A stretch of 64,000 nucleotides of DNA from an uncultured Granulosicoccaceae bacterium (GTDB lineage Bacteria > Pseudomonadota > Gammaproteobacteria > Granulosicoccales > Granulosicoccaceae), in assembly GCA_938041955.1 (NCBI GenBank), contig CALISD010000042.1, forward strand, positions 1-64,000, given 5' to 3'. Below are positions 12,905 to 23,966 of this stretch, piece after piece; position 1 is the stretch's first letter; every line of letters starts with the position of its first letter. The position numbers were made by a program, and so were the translations under genes. Below the pieces are notes generated by a model. The model searched no databases. It saw nothing but the letters and a program-made list of their open reading frames with translations, and was not told the origin of the DNA.

Positions 12905-13621
12905 TCAGCATTTTATTGTTTGTCTGCTGTAATCAGATAATTTTTGTACCGACACTCGTGGCTTTGAAAGTGTTTTTGGATCGCTTATTTTGTGCTCCAT
13001 GGATGCTCTAAAGCCAAACTTGTCAAAAAATCGATCGTACATGTCTGCACCATAGCTGCCGGTAGCATAGAGTTGCTTTGTTGTTTCATCGTATTCGAGT
13101 TCAATGGCTGCGAGTGGATGCGGCGCGGGCCCTCCCAGGACCCGTGCACCTTGTGCAGGATCATAAACACTTCGTTCCGAGCAGCAGGAGATGAGTCCGG
13201 ACTTTTCCACTGTTTTCCGTTCAGTTTGACTATAAAAGCTGACGGGATCATGACGATAATTGATGAATGAAATCTCTTTGGCCGGGTGGCTCATCTTATG
13301 GCTGCATATAGCTGAGTATGCAACGATAGAATTTTTTTCCCCCACACCGCCGCGCCATTGTGGTTCGTTCTTTGTCGGGTTGTCACTATCGCTGCTTACA
13401 CGGTTACCAAGGTTGATTAACAAGCATGGTGTGGTGAGAAACGGATAAAAGAAAATATACGGTTCGCCAACTACAAGGCTGTCTGCTGTAAGTGGTGCAG
13501 ATTTCCCGGATTGCAATAGACTGCGCTGATAGTTTTGTTTTTCATTGCCGGCGATTAGATCTGTTGTAGTTGCAGATACAATCAGAGATGTACAGATTTT
13601 TGTAAAATGCCTGCGGTTCAT
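12905..13621 (-). CDS. Tat-exported Rieske-like protein with an incomplete cluster motif
   Basis: About 238 residues. The N-terminus MNRRHFTK followed by a hydrophobic stretch is a twin-arginine signal, so export in folded form is expected. The Rieske-like part has the first ligand pair CSH (in AICSHKMSHP) and the region GLISCCSERSVYDPAQGARV with GGPAPHPL after it, matching the second half of a Rieske domain. The expected C-x2-H is absent: after CC come Ser, Glu and Arg. The ATG at 13621 is chosen for its GGGGA ribosome site; another ATG lies 12 bp upstream. It stands alone between repeat element B and a divergent DUF481 gene. Whether it binds a cluster is doubtful. Confidence 0.7.
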   Translation of the reverse strand: MNRRHFTKICTSLIVSATTTDLIAGNEKQNYQRSLLQSGKSAPLTADSLVVGEPYIFFYPFLTTPCLLINLGNRVSSDSDNPTKNEPQWRGGVGEKNSIVAYSAICSHKMSHPAKEISFINYRHDPVSFYSQTERKTVEKSGLISCCSERSVYDPAQGARVLGGPAPHPLAAIELEYDETTKQLYATGSYGADMYDRFFDKFGFRASMEHKISDPKTLSKPRVSVQKLSDYSRQTIKC

Positions 13622-13978
13622 AACGTTCCCCATTAGTGCGCTTGTTATCCAGTGCGTAACTGGTTGTTAATCCGATTTCATGTGACTGTGCGTGTCCGAA
13701 CTAGACCGACTATAAACCCGTCGCTACACACGTGATGGAATTAAAAAAATGTTTGGTTATTGTTCAGCTACGAAGTGTAAGTCTTACTAATCAGACAAAT
13801 CGAACTGTTACTTTGTAAACATCTGTTTCTTGTATTGTACGTTAGTTAAAAAGATATCAATGTACAACACCGACGATCGCAGATCGGGATACATAACAGT
13901 TTTCTTGAAATACGCGTTACCACCCCTATTACAACGAAGTAAGTTACAACCAACTACAACTACAAAAAGGCTAGTGAC
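13622..13978. other. Divergent intergenic region, 357 bp
   Basis: AT-rich stretch between the divergent Rieske-like and DUF481 genes. It should hold both promoters. Apart from the candidate promoter at 13905-13932, no repeat, RNA gene or credible small ORF was seen. Confidence 0.6.
13905..13932 (+). promoter_or_regulatory. Candidate sigma-70 promoter of the DUF481 gene
   Basis: TTGAAA (13905-13910) and TATTAC (13927-13932) are spaced 16 bp apart, about 47 bp before the ATG. Match to consensus is moderate; no experimental support. Confidence 0.3.
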
Positions 13979-18860: not shown

Positions 18861-19511
18861 ATGTACGCTGTAAAAAATCGCTTCTACAAGCACTCAAAGC
18901 TTGATGAAGATCGTTTCAGAATGATTTTAGAGCTTTTTTCTAAAGACATGACTGCGGTTCAGTGCGCCAAGCAAACTGGAGTGAATGTCAGATCTGTTAA
19001 TTCGATCTATTTAAAGCTTCGGGATCGCATTGCACATTGGTGTGAATCCAATGCCTCAGGAACGCCGGGGTTGCACGCCAGCCGGAATACTGACTCTATT
19101 ACAGCCGTTGGTCCGACTTACATTGATAGTGCCAGTGATGGAGTGATCGGCGTCTATTTGTACCTGATGGAAGATCAGGTATATAGCGCCTTGCTAAATG
19201 GTGCGCTACCAGGTGAGCCGGTGGTCAATGAAGAGGGAAACTGGCGCGAGTATCCCATCGGGATTGATGTTCGACGTGACATGCGTTTGAAGATCAAAAA
19301 TTCTACTTTTCAAAGTGCGCACGCCGCAGGTGACATTGAGCGAATTGAAGAGTTTGGTGCATTTCTGAGATTGCGGCTGACTAAATTCAAAGGCCTGCGA
19401 CGTGAGAAGTTCTACTTTCACCTGAAAGAAAGTGAGTACCGATACAATCATCGTCAGGAAGATTTGAATAGCCTGCTATTAAATATGTTAGGTGAAACCC
19501 CGATTGAGTGA
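18861..19511 (+). CDS. IS1595-type transposase-derived protein lacking the catalytic core
   Basis: A 216-residue protein. Residues 15-55 look like the N-terminal helix-turn-helix of IS1595/ISXO2 transposases (LELFSKDMTAVQCAKQTGVN). The C-terminal 45 residues match the end of that family (FKGLRREKFYFHLKESEYRY followed by NHRQEDL). The middle is only about 100 residues where the family has a DDE domain of roughly twice that, and no DDE triad is apparent. The start has a strong GGGGAAGGA ribosome site, and no terminal inverted repeats were seen around it. It may be a domesticated DNA-binding protein or a decayed internal deletion that remains open. Confidence 0.55.
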   Translation: MYAVKNRFYKHSKLDEDRFRMILELFSKDMTAVQCAKQTGVNVRSVNSIYLKLRDRIAHWCESNASGTPGLHASRNTDSITAVGPTYIDSASDGVIGVYLYLMEDQVYSALLNGALPGEPVVNEEGNWREYPIGIDVRRDMRLKIKNSTFQSAHAAGDIERIEEFGAFLRLRLTKFKGLRREKFYFHLKESEYRYNHRQEDLNSLLLNMLGETPIE

Positions 19512-20429: not shown

Positions 20430-20912
20430 ATGGCTTCATTTGATGTTGTTTCTGAAATTGATGAGCATGAACTCACTAATGCGGTAGACCAGGCCAATAA
20501 AGAAATTGGTAACCGTTTTGACTTCAAAGGCTCTGATGCAATTATTGAATTGACAGAAGAGGCGATGACGCTGATCGCTGCCAGTGATTTTCAGGTTCAG
20601 CAAATGCAACCGATTATTCTGCAAAAAATGACCAAGCGCGGGCTTGATATCAGTTGCCTTGACTATGGTGACATACAAACCAGTGGCCAGAAGGCGCGCC
20701 AGGTGCTCGCAATCAAGAAAGGAATAAACAAGGAGATTGCGGGTAAAATTGTTAAGGCAATAAAAAACTCAAAGATGAAATTGCAAGCCGCCATTCAGGG
20801 CGATCAAGTGAGAATTACGGGTAAGAAAAGAGATGATCTTCAGGGTGCAATTGCTCTTCTAAAGGAAACAGACTTTAAATTGCCCTTGCAGTATATAAAT
20901 TTCAGAGACTAA
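20430..20912 (+). CDS. yajQ: YajQ-family nucleotide-binding protein
   Basis: Cytoplasmic protein of 160 residues. The family sequence is clear: MASFDVVSEID at the start, NRFDFKGSDA, and IKNSKMKLQAAIQGDQVRIT followed by GKKRDDLQ near the end. YajQ homologues bind nucleotides, and a cyclic-di-GMP effector role has been reported in Xanthomonas and Pseudomonas. The ATG at 20430 with GGACGGAGG upstream fits the family; an in-frame extension to 20382 is unlikely. The stop is followed within a few bases by a repeat copy. Confidence 0.95.
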   Translation: MASFDVVSEIDEHELTNAVDQANKEIGNRFDFKGSDAIIELTEEAMTLIAASDFQVQQMQPIILQKMTKRGLDISCLDYGDIQTSGQKARQVLAIKKGINKEIAGKIVKAIKNSKMKLQAAIQGDQVRITGKKRDDLQGAIALLKETDFKLPLQYINFRD

Positions 20913-21108: not shown

Positions 21109-21999
21109 CTAGCTGCCGTAAATATCGTAGCGAGTATTAGGTGAGGTGATGTTGCCGGACGGCGCAACGTCTGCCAGTGGGCGGGCTTTACGTGGTCGTT
21201 TTACTACTACCCGCTTTGCGGTTTTGCGCGCTGCCTGCAAAAGCGATATTTCATAGTCTTTTTGTTCATCTGCAGTATTGTCGTATGCGGCAAGATTGCG
21301 CTTCGCCGTATTCGTCACTGCAGGTGATGTTTCCAGTAGAACTCTTAGTGTCTGAATTTCCTTTTTGGCGGTTCGTTTTCCGTCAGGGTACATTGGATCA
21401 AGATAAACCACTTGCGGGGGGGTGTGATACAACCAATTGCCTGGTAGTAAAGTGCTGTCGCTCTTGTACAGAGTCATGCGCTCAGCGATGGTAGCGGTGT
21501 CCGGGTGTGCCGCTGCACGTGTGATGGCGTCTTTTAACAGTGCATGCACAACGATTGATTGTTCCAGTAAAATGACTTCACAGCCCAGTGAAGCAAACAC
21601 AAAGGCATCTCTTCCAAGTCCTGCTGTGGCATCGCACACCAACGGGAGTTCGCGTGTTTTTATCGCTCGTGCGAGCTCTTGCCCGTGGCCGCCTCCATAC
21701 TTTAGCCGATGTAATGCCCGTCCCTGTGTGAAATCGATGCAAACATTGACAACAGAACGTTTGCTGTGATCCTTCAGTGTAAGTTTGTTGTCAATCCACT
21801 GCAGCGTGAAGCGGAAATTGATTGGCTGTGTGGCGGTTTCGGACGAGTGTGTTGCTGCTTTTATTAATTCCAGTGCGGTGCTTTCTGCGAGTGCATAGGT
21901 GCGATCATCATTATCGTCGATAATCGCTACGTTCTTATTATCGGGAAGGGGTATCACGTTGTTAGTACGCTCGGTGAAACGGTATGTGCGACAATCCAA
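21109..21999 (-). CDS. rsmJ: 16S rRNA (guanine1516-N2)-methyltransferase
   Basis: SAM-dependent methyltransferase that modifies 16S rRNA. The SAM motif LVCDATAGLGRDAFVFASLG near residue 120 and the catalytic VYLDPMYPDGKRTAKKE motif are characteristic of RsmJ. At 296 residues it is slightly longer than the E. coli form (250) because of a 5' extension. The frame opens with TTG at 21999, and a later in-frame start could apply. It overlaps the leading part of the divergent reading frame next door. Confidence 0.88.
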   Translation of the reverse strand: MDCRTYRFTERTNNVIPLPDNKNVAIIDDNDDRTYALAESTALELIKAATHSSETATQPINFRFTLQWIDNKLTLKDHSKRSVVNVCIDFTQGRALHRLKYGGGHGQELARAIKTRELPLVCDATAGLGRDAFVFASLGCEVILLEQSIVVHALLKDAITRAAAHPDTATIAERMTLYKSDSTLLPGNWLYHTPPQVVYLDPMYPDGKRTAKKEIQTLRVLLETSPAVTNTAKRNLAAYDNTADEQKDYEISLLQAARKTAKRVVVKRPRKARPLADVAPSGNITSPNTRYDIYGS

Positions 22000-22046: not shown

Positions 22047-22604
22047 ATGGAAAATAACCGATTAACGTTACTGCGGGTGTTGGTAAAACTCATGTCGCTT
22101 CTCGCGCTGTGTGCCTTTGGCTGGGTGTTGTTTGGCTCTGTACCGGAGCGTGCCCCGGGCGAAATCGAGGTAACGCGTTTTGACGTGTCTGATATGAAGC
22201 CGGGGGACTACCTTCTGATAGAGTGGCAAAAAAAACCACTCTATATAGTGTACCGAAAACCGCAATGGGAATCAGCGCTTCAGTCAGTCGATACTGATCT
22301 CTACCGCGATCCGGATAGCCGGAATTCGGTGCAACCGGCCGAGGCTTCTAATGCGTTGCGTACAATGGTCCCCGGTTGGTTTGTCACGCTTGGTCTGGGC
22401 ACTGGTGCCGGTTGCAGTTTAACTTTCAGTCAGCCGGATAACGATACAGCTGCGAACGATGGTTTGCCCGGGGGGTTCATCGATGGCTGTGATCAAAGTC
22501 GTTATGATTTAGCAGGTCGGGTGTACGCAGGTCAATCAGCGAGGCGCAATACCGTGATCCCTCAGTGGCGCCGGGAGAACGGAGTAATTTTGATCAGCGA
22601 GTAA
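22047..22604 (+). CDS. Rieske-fold membrane-anchored protein without cluster ligands
   Basis: 185 residues with one N-terminal transmembrane anchor (about residues 10-28). The body follows the bc1-complex Rieske subunit: FDVSDMKPGDYLLIEWQKKP, then PGWFVTLGLGTGAGCSL in place of the CTHLGC loop, then GGFIDGCDQSRYDLAGRVYA in place of CPCHGS. All four ligand positions are replaced (C to G, H to G, C to D, H to D), while the two cysteines that form the disulfide in true Rieske proteins remain. The ATG at 22047 is preferred over an upstream extension to 21984. Not next to cytochrome b or c1 genes. Function unknown. Confidence 0.65.
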   Translation: MENNRLTLLRVLVKLMSLLALCAFGWVLFGSVPERAPGEIEVTRFDVSDMKPGDYLLIEWQKKPLYIVYRKPQWESALQSVDTDLYRDPDSRNSVQPAEASNALRTMVPGWFVTLGLGTGAGCSLTFSQPDNDTAANDGLPGGFIDGCDQSRYDLAGRVYAGQSARRNTVIPQWRRENGVILISE

Positions 22605-22666: not shown

Positions 22667-22906
22667 TTAGTAGTGTGGAGGAGGAGTCTCATCCGATTCT
22701 TTCACCAGCGGGGCGGTGAGTGTTTGTAGTTGGCTTTGGTACGCATTGAGCTTGCTGGTCAGATCGTCAATGGTTTGTTCATGGCGTACAACTACTTCAT
22801 TGAGTTGTTCGATGGTGAGCTCCATATCCATCAGCTTCAGCTCCACCGCTTGTATTCTTGATTCCACTTTTGCCACCGTCACTGTTTCAGTGGTGGCAGT
22901 GTACAC
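22667..22906 (-). CDS. slyX: SlyX family protein
   Basis: A 79-residue coiled-coil protein. It matches SlyX in heptad-rich helices (residues 14-62, including LTIEQLNEVVVRHEQTIDDL) and in the diagnostic C-terminal PPPHY. The start is GTG. It lies 10 bp after the mreB-like gene on the same strand, so the two are probably co-transcribed. The SlyX function is poorly known. Confidence 0.88.
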   Translation of the reverse strand: MYTATTETVTVAKVESRIQAVELKLMDMELTIEQLNEVVVRHEQTIDDLTSKLNAYQSQLQTLTAPLVKESDETPPPHY

Positions 22907-22916
22907 CGAATTCGAC

Positions 22917-23966
22917 TTAGGCAGGTTCAGTCAAGTCTTGTGGTGCGACGGCATCCACCATCTGCGAAGCCGCACCACGTACACTGCATGTCAATGGTCG
23001 ACTGACCACTTCAACCGGCAGGTCGGTGGCTTCCATGACGAGCTGATCTACGCGCGACAGGAGTGCTCCGCCTCCGCAAATCTGTATCCCGCTTTCAAAT
23101 GCAACTTCTTTTATCCGATTGTCCACAGAGGCAAAGGCCAGTCGTATGGAGTGTGTTAGCTGCTCTAACAAAGGTTCCAATATTTGACTGATGGTTTCAG
23201 AGCCGACTCTGAATTGTGTGTTGCTGTTGGTAGCCAGAGACAGGCAATTGAGTTGAATAGATTGCCGTGAGTGCTGAACGATAGATTGTGGGGTGGCCGC
23301 CCCGATTTTATGTTTCACTTCCCGTGCATTTTCTGCAGAGACTTGCAGTTCAAAGCGATCAAGCAGGCCCGTTATAATGGCTTGGTCGATCGCATCGCCG
23401 CCACATGATAGTAGTTGGTGATGCTGGACCTGGTTGTCGGCTATGGCAATGAGCCTTGAACTGGTGGCACCGAAATCTATCACTATGCCAGGCGTCGAAT
23501 GGTCAAGGGGGGAGCCCAGGAAGGCGGTGATCGCAGCGTCCTGATAGTCGGCTTTTGTCGCACCGGAACTTATGCAGGTTTGAAGTAGTTGGCTGGCTGT
23601 TCTTACATCACACTGGTGCGGCAGGACCAGGCTGATCTCTGGTCCCCTGTTGAACAAGCCCGATTGCTTTGCCGTTGAAAGGAAGTGAGCCAGCATTTTT
23701 CTGCTAAGCCCAAGATCATTGTGACGATCAGATTGCAGGGGGTGCACACTTCGCAGTTGCTCGTTGTTGCCCTCAATGCTCTCTGCCGCGTTGTTGCCGA
23801 ACGTCACTACTGCGGCATCTCCACTCAATGGGTGATCCATATCCAGCGCACCAATCGATGGCTCATCCAGGAGAAGCCCGTCTGTGGCAGAGTAGAAGCG
23901 GGTGTGGAAAGCACCCAGATCAATTGCTATGTGATCACGAGGGTGTGGTTTTCGGCGATTGAGCAT
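22917..23966 (-). CDS. Divergent MreB-like actin-family protein
   Basis: 349 residues, the same length as MreB. Family signatures can be followed throughout: IAIDLGAFHTRFY (phosphate 1), RSVHPLQSD, LSRKMLAHFL, VIDFGATSSRLIAI (phosphate 2), CGGDAIDQAIITGLL, EVKHKIGAA and ICGGGALLSRVDQL (adenosine). Several catalytic positions differ from MreB: DLGTAN is DLGAFH, the IEEP segment with the catalytic Glu reads YQDAA, and GGGTT is GATSS. It sits divergent to gatC, where mreB lies in Pseudomonas, but mreC and mreD do not follow; slyX does. It may be a paralogue or a decayed MreB with reduced ATPase activity. Confidence 0.75.
   Translation of the reverse strand: MLNRRKPHPRDHIAIDLGAFHTRFYSATDGLLLDEPSIGALDMDHPLSGDAAVVTFGNNAAESIEGNNEQLRSVHPLQSDRHNDLGLSRKMLAHFLSTAKQSGLFNRGPEISLVLPHQCDVRTASQLLQTCISSGATKADYQDAAITAFLGSPLDHSTPGIVIDFGATSSRLIAIADNQVQHHQLLSCGGDAIDQAIITGLLDRFELQVSAENAREVKHKIGAATPQSIVQHSRQSIQLNCLSLATNSNTQFRVGSETISQILEPLLEQLTHSIRLAFASVDNRIKEVAFESGIQICGGGALLSRVDQLVMEATDLPVEVVSRPLTCSVRGAASQMVDAVAPQDLTEPA

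Follow-up and report, generated by a model that had tools for sequence, protein, structure and literature searches.

A gammaproteobacterial family of Rieske-fold proteins without cluster ligands, possibly kept as a non-redox docking domain

Introduction

Why would a bacterium keep a membrane-anchored Rieske-fold protein in which none of the four ligands of the 2Fe-2S cluster is left? The question is raised by a gene, designated RSL here, on a contig of an uncultured Granulosicoccaceae bacterium; the whole stretch of DNA analyzed, 64,000 nucleotides in length, is referred to below as the window. The features of the gene are as follows.

22047 to 22604, plus strand: the cluster-less Rieske paralogue RSL (ATG start, 185 aa plus stop)
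22050 to 22136, plus strand: N-terminal membrane helix, residues 2-30, with a hydrophobic core at 11-29 (model, hydropathy, conservation)
22137 to 22166, plus strand: linker predicted with low confidence, residues 31-40, where bc1 Rieske proteins have their hinge (pLDDT 62, low identity)
22398 to 22415, plus strand: loop 1, GTGAGC, residues 118-123 (alignment)
22482 to 22493, plus strand: loop 2, DGCD, residues 146-149 (alignment)
22527 to 22550, plus strand: former Pro loop, residues 161-168, with its prolines lost and Gln163 typical of the RSL family

Identity and Predicted Fold

In the NCBIfam profile search, the only relevant family match of RSL was the bc1 Rieske model TIGR01416, at E 9.7e-22 and with a score of 77.8 bits vs. 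a curated cut-off of 97.4, and the Pfam search of the 185-aa protein returned no match. Among PDB sequences, 8smr_C (P. aeruginosa bc1-cbb3, 6.5e-22) and 7yr9_A (T. tepidum PetA, 1.1e-20) were followed by the next chain at only 6.9e-10; such a lead suggests the descent of RSL from a gamma-type Rieske protein.

The AlphaFold2 model, built on 22 sequences (mean pLDDT 90.6), displays a Rieske fold with a helix at residues 2-30, i.e., the fold and N-terminal membrane helix characteristic of the bc1 Rieske subunit. Apart from the linker and an insert around residues 131-140 (pLDDT 59), the head is predicted confidently. In the Foldseek search against the PDB, bc1 Rieske subunits ranked first (8smr_C, 6.5e-16; 7yr9_A, 2.0e-15, rmsd 2.3 Å, TM 0.87 by target length), in agreement with the resemblance to this subunit proposed in an earlier note made from the DNA letters. 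The head presumably resides in the periplasm.

Loss of the Ligands and Retention of the Disulfide Cysteines

The loops reading CTHLGC and CPCH in intact Rieske proteins read GTGAGC and DGCD in RSL, where none of the four 2Fe-2S ligands is present. In loop 1, Gly118 and Gly120 replace the Cys and His ligands and the disulfide-forming Cys123 is kept; in loop 2, Asp146 and Asp149 replace the other Cys and His, and Cys148 is kept. This bears out the reading of the earlier note that all four ligands were replaced while the two disulfide cysteines remained. The whole protein contains no histidine and only three cysteines (22, located in the membrane helix, 123, and 148), and a Cys2His2 cluster is impossible in it. 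Judging from the overlay with 7yr9, a Cys123-Cys148 disulfide is likely in the model.

The same pattern is characteristic of the entire family. Among 65 complete distinct RSL sequences, the window included (41 from Granulosicoccaceae, 20 from family f93, and one each from f20, f111, f112, and f136), not a single one of the four ligand residues is kept, and both disulfide cysteines are present in all 65, these being the only strictly conserved Cys or His columns of the family. Two further relatives from f111 likewise lack the ligands and possess both cysteines, so the orthologue comparison proposed earlier ends with the shared pattern in 67/67 complete sequences, window included. All six residues are kept in the 37 intact Rieske rows. 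The rows were assigned to the two groups according to whether the intact motif was present, hence the missing full motif is a matter of definition, but the total absence of ligands is not. Near-identical fragments were counted once, and a cut-off intact Rieske sequence (L051) and two cut-off RSL sequences (L187 and L189) were dropped before counting.

The strict conservation of the two cysteines (65/65, plus two more) would suit a thiol-disulfide role, with the Cys123-Cys148 pair being redox-active or sensing in the periplasm. Still, this role seems improbable, since the cysteines correspond to those of the structural disulfide in intact Rieske proteins, the window RSL contains no CxxC, and no thiol-redox gene was recognized by eye among its neighbors. 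For the T. tepidum Rieske protein, PMC10492824 gives Cys124, His126, Cys152, and His155 as the cluster-site residues and Cys129-Cys154 as the disulfide. A redox role of any kind would have to be seated in the disulfide alone, and it finds no support here.

Occurrence among Genomes

The RSL gene was found in 40 of 48 genomes from the order to which the window belongs, all being Granulosicoccaceae (code f1), and the RSL sequences come from this and five other gammaproteobacterial families. The eight apparent absences are mostly assembly gaps and are poor evidence of loss: in G060 and G062 the gene is present but cut off at a contig end; in G006, G008, and G024 the contig with gatA stops before the expected place of RSL; in G015 and G022 neither rsmJ nor gatA was found at the thresholds used; and in G058 rsmJ is present without RSL beside it, slyX lying at a contig end. 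One genome (G017) features two near-identical ligand-less copies, L039 and L019, on contigs C149 and C474, both near contig ends, which can stem either from duplication or from an assembly artefact.

The scan of the class returned 22 of 370 genomes at E ≤ 1e-44, a lower bound given the high threshold and at most 8 candidates scored per genome; 12 of the matches are ligand-less (4 in the window's own family and 8 in the five others) and 10 are intact Rieske proteins. In family f93, 33 of 47 genomes match, and 20 of these sequences were read; in the order of G407, 3 of 20 genomes match. The scan of the phylum at E ≤ 1e-47 retrieved one genome of 397, that of the window itself.

Selection and History

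Of 14 RSL pairs, 12 gave dN/dS of 0.11-0.30, the other two being saturated, vs. 0.023-0.051 in five petA pairs; as judged from these ratios, RSL is under purifying selection which is looser than that on petA. In a tree of 102 rows, RSL and the 37 intact Rieske proteins fall on the two sides of one branch (100/100), though the tree is unrooted, has long branches, and includes the motif columns. The view that RSL is an old paralogue, derived from the gamma-type Rieske subunit of bc1, is part of the explanation preferred below, which as a whole is put forward tentatively.

One could also think of a decaying duplicate of the bc1 Rieske gene, considering the loss of all cluster ligands and dN/dS values several times those of petA. 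However, dN/dS is well below 1, no internal stop was found among the 41 matches listed for the window's order, and both the replacements and the synteny are shared across families, so that this explanation is barely credible; random decay as such is excluded by the dN/dS values and the family-wide conservation. The earlier note regarded the selective loss as a sign of a new structural or redox role and not of decay. The conservation and dN/dS uphold its rejection of decay, and a structural or binding role is favored over a redox one, for which no support emerged. Since RSL is maintained by selection in a genome that also has an intact Rieske gene, it has probably turned into a non-redox partner or structural protein.

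Features Lost and Retained in the RSL Family

Several hallmarks of the working bc1 subunit have been lost or relaxed along with the ligands. A Tat-like motif occurs in 9 of 65 RSL rows vs. 35 of 37 intact Rieske rows, and the Tat scan of the window protein revealed no RR pair. None of 33 RSL members matched Pfam PF10399 (Tat signal) or PF00355 (Rieske domain) at E ≤ 0.1, and the genome's intact PetA matches both. The bc1 hinge sequence is not conserved (mean identity in the hinge region 0.26 in RSL vs. 0.87 in intact Rieske proteins), nor are the prolines of the Pro loop. At the same time, nearly invariant new residues, Arg and Lys (R10 and K14 in the window protein), appeared close to where the membrane helix begins.

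In RSL, conservation is highest in the two tip loops, with a mean column identity of 0.79 for loop 2 and 0.70 for loop 1; the same loops are more conserved in intact Rieske proteins (0.91 and 0.98, respectively). The tip of the Rieske protein is its docking face in bc1. The tip loops being the most conserved part of RSL, the tip is under selection without the metal.

Re-Packing of the Former Cluster Site

The two former His positions, which we take to be His141 and His161 in the bovine numbering, carry Asp and Arg in 45 of the 65 RSL rows. Arg161 is encountered exclusively together with Asp141 (45/45) and in 45 of the 48 rows with Asp141, and 17 rows have neither; each of the two positions is the strongest coupled column of the other among the columns tested. 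The coupling is strong if kinship is ignored (Fisher p 6e-13); on the tree, it comes down to three independent contrasts on supported branches, with the same direction in nearly every pairing (sign test p 0.25). In the genus of the window, the Asp/Arg pair is missing and Gly/Asp (or Ser/Asp, Ala/Asp) is found in its stead. In the intact Rieske fold, both His ligands bind the same iron, so a salt bridge between Asp and Arg at these places is a natural inference. The joint change of the former His positions, mostly to Asp and Arg, suggests a re-packed site.

Alternatively, the emptied site may bind another metal, an anion, or a small molecule via the conserved Asp146 and the Asp/Arg pair. The position of Cys158 is indeed Asp in 62 of the 65 rows, and ZnCl2 can be accommodated in the site of the intact Rieske protein (PMC10492824). 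On the other hand, the family has no conserved His or free Cys, and the fourth ligand position (Arg in 45 rows, Asp in 16, Gly in 3, and Ala in 1) changes for the most part together with its partner, a behavior more in line with packing than with coordination; there seems to be but a slight chance of such binding.

Gene Neighborhood and the Intact bc1 Genes

In the window, RSL is surrounded by yajQ, rsmJ, slyX, a gene for an MreB-like protein, and gatCAB.

20430 to 20912, plus strand: yajQ-like gene, conserved neighbor (Pfam PF04461)
21109 to 21999, minus strand: rsmJ-like methyltransferase gene, conserved neighbor (Pfam PF04445)
22667 to 22906, minus strand: slyX, neighbor in Granulosicoccaceae (Pfam PF04102)
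22917 to 23966, minus strand: gene for an MreB-like protein upstream of gatC (Pfam PF06723, 150.6 bits)

The names yajQ, rsmJ, and gatCAB were assigned by recognition and are thus presumptive, PF04461 and PF04445 being the Pfam matches of the first two. The rsmJ gene adjoins RSL in 20 of 21 regions (the window and 19 other Granulosicoccaceae), the exception being G054 of family f20. Among eight regions from other families, six have rsmJ adjoining RSL, all six with a gene close by that we presume to be cyaY-like, and two of the six have yajQ near RSL. The RSL regions of G054 and G407 contain no rsmJ, cyaY-like gene, or yajQ. Other recurrent genes of these regions include the cluster of the MreB-like gene (14 of the 21 regions compared) and a 216-aa conserved protein near pdxH (11 of 21; window 18861 to 19511, plus strand), for which there was no Pfam match. 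In family f93, a small conserved protein (GIHND..GGMTP) is encoded between the cyaY-like gene and RSL:

L146, 8862 to 9182, minus strand: small GIHND..GGMTP protein (no Pfam match for this copy)
L148, 10033 to 10503, plus strand: small GIHND..GGMTP protein
L149, 9086 to 9463, minus strand: small GIHND..GGMTP protein

Genes for cytochrome b or c1 were found in none of 29 regions (the 64-kb window plus 28 regions, each 10.7-19.9 kb in length, surrounding relatives) by tblastn with the genome's own proteins, a search that recovered the petABC positive control; the statement of the earlier note that RSL does not lie beside them is hereby confirmed for the window. The genome also has an intact petA-petB-petC set, with subunit names assigned by recognition, on a separate contig (G000:C86). 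Considering these intact genes and the 0/29 count, the candidate role of RSL as its genome's own petABC subunit was rejected. A further TIGR01416 match of at least 218 bits was obtained in all 12 other RSL-bearing genomes tested, the ligands having been read only in G054; it is weak evidence, as some Rieske-type match was obtained in 54 of 57 relatives in any case.

The Putative Role of RSL

Overall, the evidence is best accommodated, with somewhat less than even confidence, by a non-redox, disulfide-clamped docking protein whose likeliest partner is bc1. An ancestral copy of the bc1 Rieske gene would have given up the 2Fe-2S cluster and would have been kept as a membrane-anchored periplasmic docking domain without a role in electron transfer. 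The Cys123-Cys148 disulfide, aided by the Asp/Arg pair in most relatives, would hold the emptied tip in shape, and the conserved tip would bind a protein partner, most likely cytochrome bc1 or its assembly intermediate or supercomplex, which RSL could stabilize, hold open, or regulate without turning over. In favor of this explanation as a whole are the lost ligands and kept cysteines, the purifying selection, the 100/100 branch, the conservation of the tip, the coupled Asp/Arg positions, the predicted fold, the coexisting intact petABC, and the precedent of Acidocella (see below). Genome context lends no support to the binding of bc1, there being no cytochrome b or c1 gene in the 29 regions. 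It also counts against the explanation that RSL is not seen in many gammaproteobacteria (no match at the threshold in 348 of the 370 genomes of the class), that the coupling comprises three contrasts, and that the window's own genus is devoid of the Asp/Arg pair. Moreover, with the hinge sequence and Pro loop of the working Rieske protein lost or unconstrained, RSL need not dock in the bc1 crater.

The latter losses, the linkage to rsmJ, yajQ, slyX, and gatCAB, or to cyaY and rsmJ, instead of respiratory genes, and the absence of cytochrome b and c1 from all 29 regions would be expected of a non-redox scaffold of the Rieske fold whose partner lies elsewhere than in bc1, e.g., in the cell envelope, with descent from bc1 being mere history. 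This scaffold is an unlikely but serious contender: housekeeping gene order may represent plain vertical inheritance, and the most conserved part of the protein is the very tip that docks in bc1. Returning to the bc1-docking reading, its more specific form, a dedicated gammaproteobacterial cluster-less Rieske family imitating the Rieske head as a non-redox placeholder, assembly factor, or regulator of bc1 with a site re-packed by co-evolving Asp and Arg, is more doubtful still.

Relation to Known Systems

RSL resembles the gamma-type bc1 PetA (TIGR01416; 8smr_C, 7yr9_A) in the fold, the N-terminal membrane helix, the disulfide cysteines, and many structural residues; it differs in having no cluster ligand, Pro loop, or hinge consensus, in the rarity of the Tat-like motif, and in not being encoded beside petB and petC. 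A Rieske fold without the cluster is also typical of the NirD-type proteins, though these are soluble subunits of nitrite reductase from a different Rieske branch.

A closer parallel is the "deranged" iron-sulfur protein (ISP) of Acidocella, for which, in the report by Degli Esposti and colleagues (PMC10715153), the loss of three to four cluster ligands with the retention of the disulfide pair was described and a structural role in the bc1 complex was proposed. RSL shares with it the lost ligands and the kept disulfide pair. However, according to that report, the Acidocella ISP is alphaproteobacterial and is bc1's own subunit accompanied by a deranged cytochrome b, whereas RSL is a separate gammaproteobacterial paralogue beside an intact petABC; the two are likened by ligand pattern. 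Hence, ligand loss with a preserved disulfide is already known, and what is added here is a conserved paralogue family beside an intact bc1 in Gammaproteobacteria; the literature searched yielded no account of a distinct ligand-less Rieske paralogue from this class.

In RSL, nature provides a long-standing and testable example of a respiratory electron carrier that gave up its cofactor but was retained for the fold; it shows that a Rieske head can be of value even with no cluster in it. It also offers a natural scaffold for comparison with the immature Rieske form.

There are implications for genome annotation as well, since the score of a ligand-less RSL can lie above the NCBIfam threshold set for functional bc1 Rieske proteins. 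Of 12 relatives tested, three did so with 102.5-106.6 bits and are likely misannotated as working bc1 Rieske proteins:

G139:C1:316454-316975 (in L131): ligand-less relative above the TIGR01416 cut-off
G330:C29:26369-26884 (in L129): ligand-less relative above the TIGR01416 cut-off
G423:C1:2304860-2305405 (in L156): ligand-less relative above the TIGR01416 cut-off

A Second Unusual Rieske Protein in the Window

The window harbors another Rieske protein, of 241 aa, related to SoxF/SoxL2/AioB.

12905 to 13633, minus strand: 241-aa Rieske protein

It matches 1jm1 at 1.1e-8 and TIGR03171 at 6.8e-24, the latter far below the cut-off. When aligned with SoxF, the protein retains three ligand positions, has Glu in place of the second His, and carries Ser or Thr at the two positions of the disulfide cysteines; this pattern was found in all four complete homologues, the window included. 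This protein is a mirror image of RSL and possibly has an unusual ligation of the cluster.
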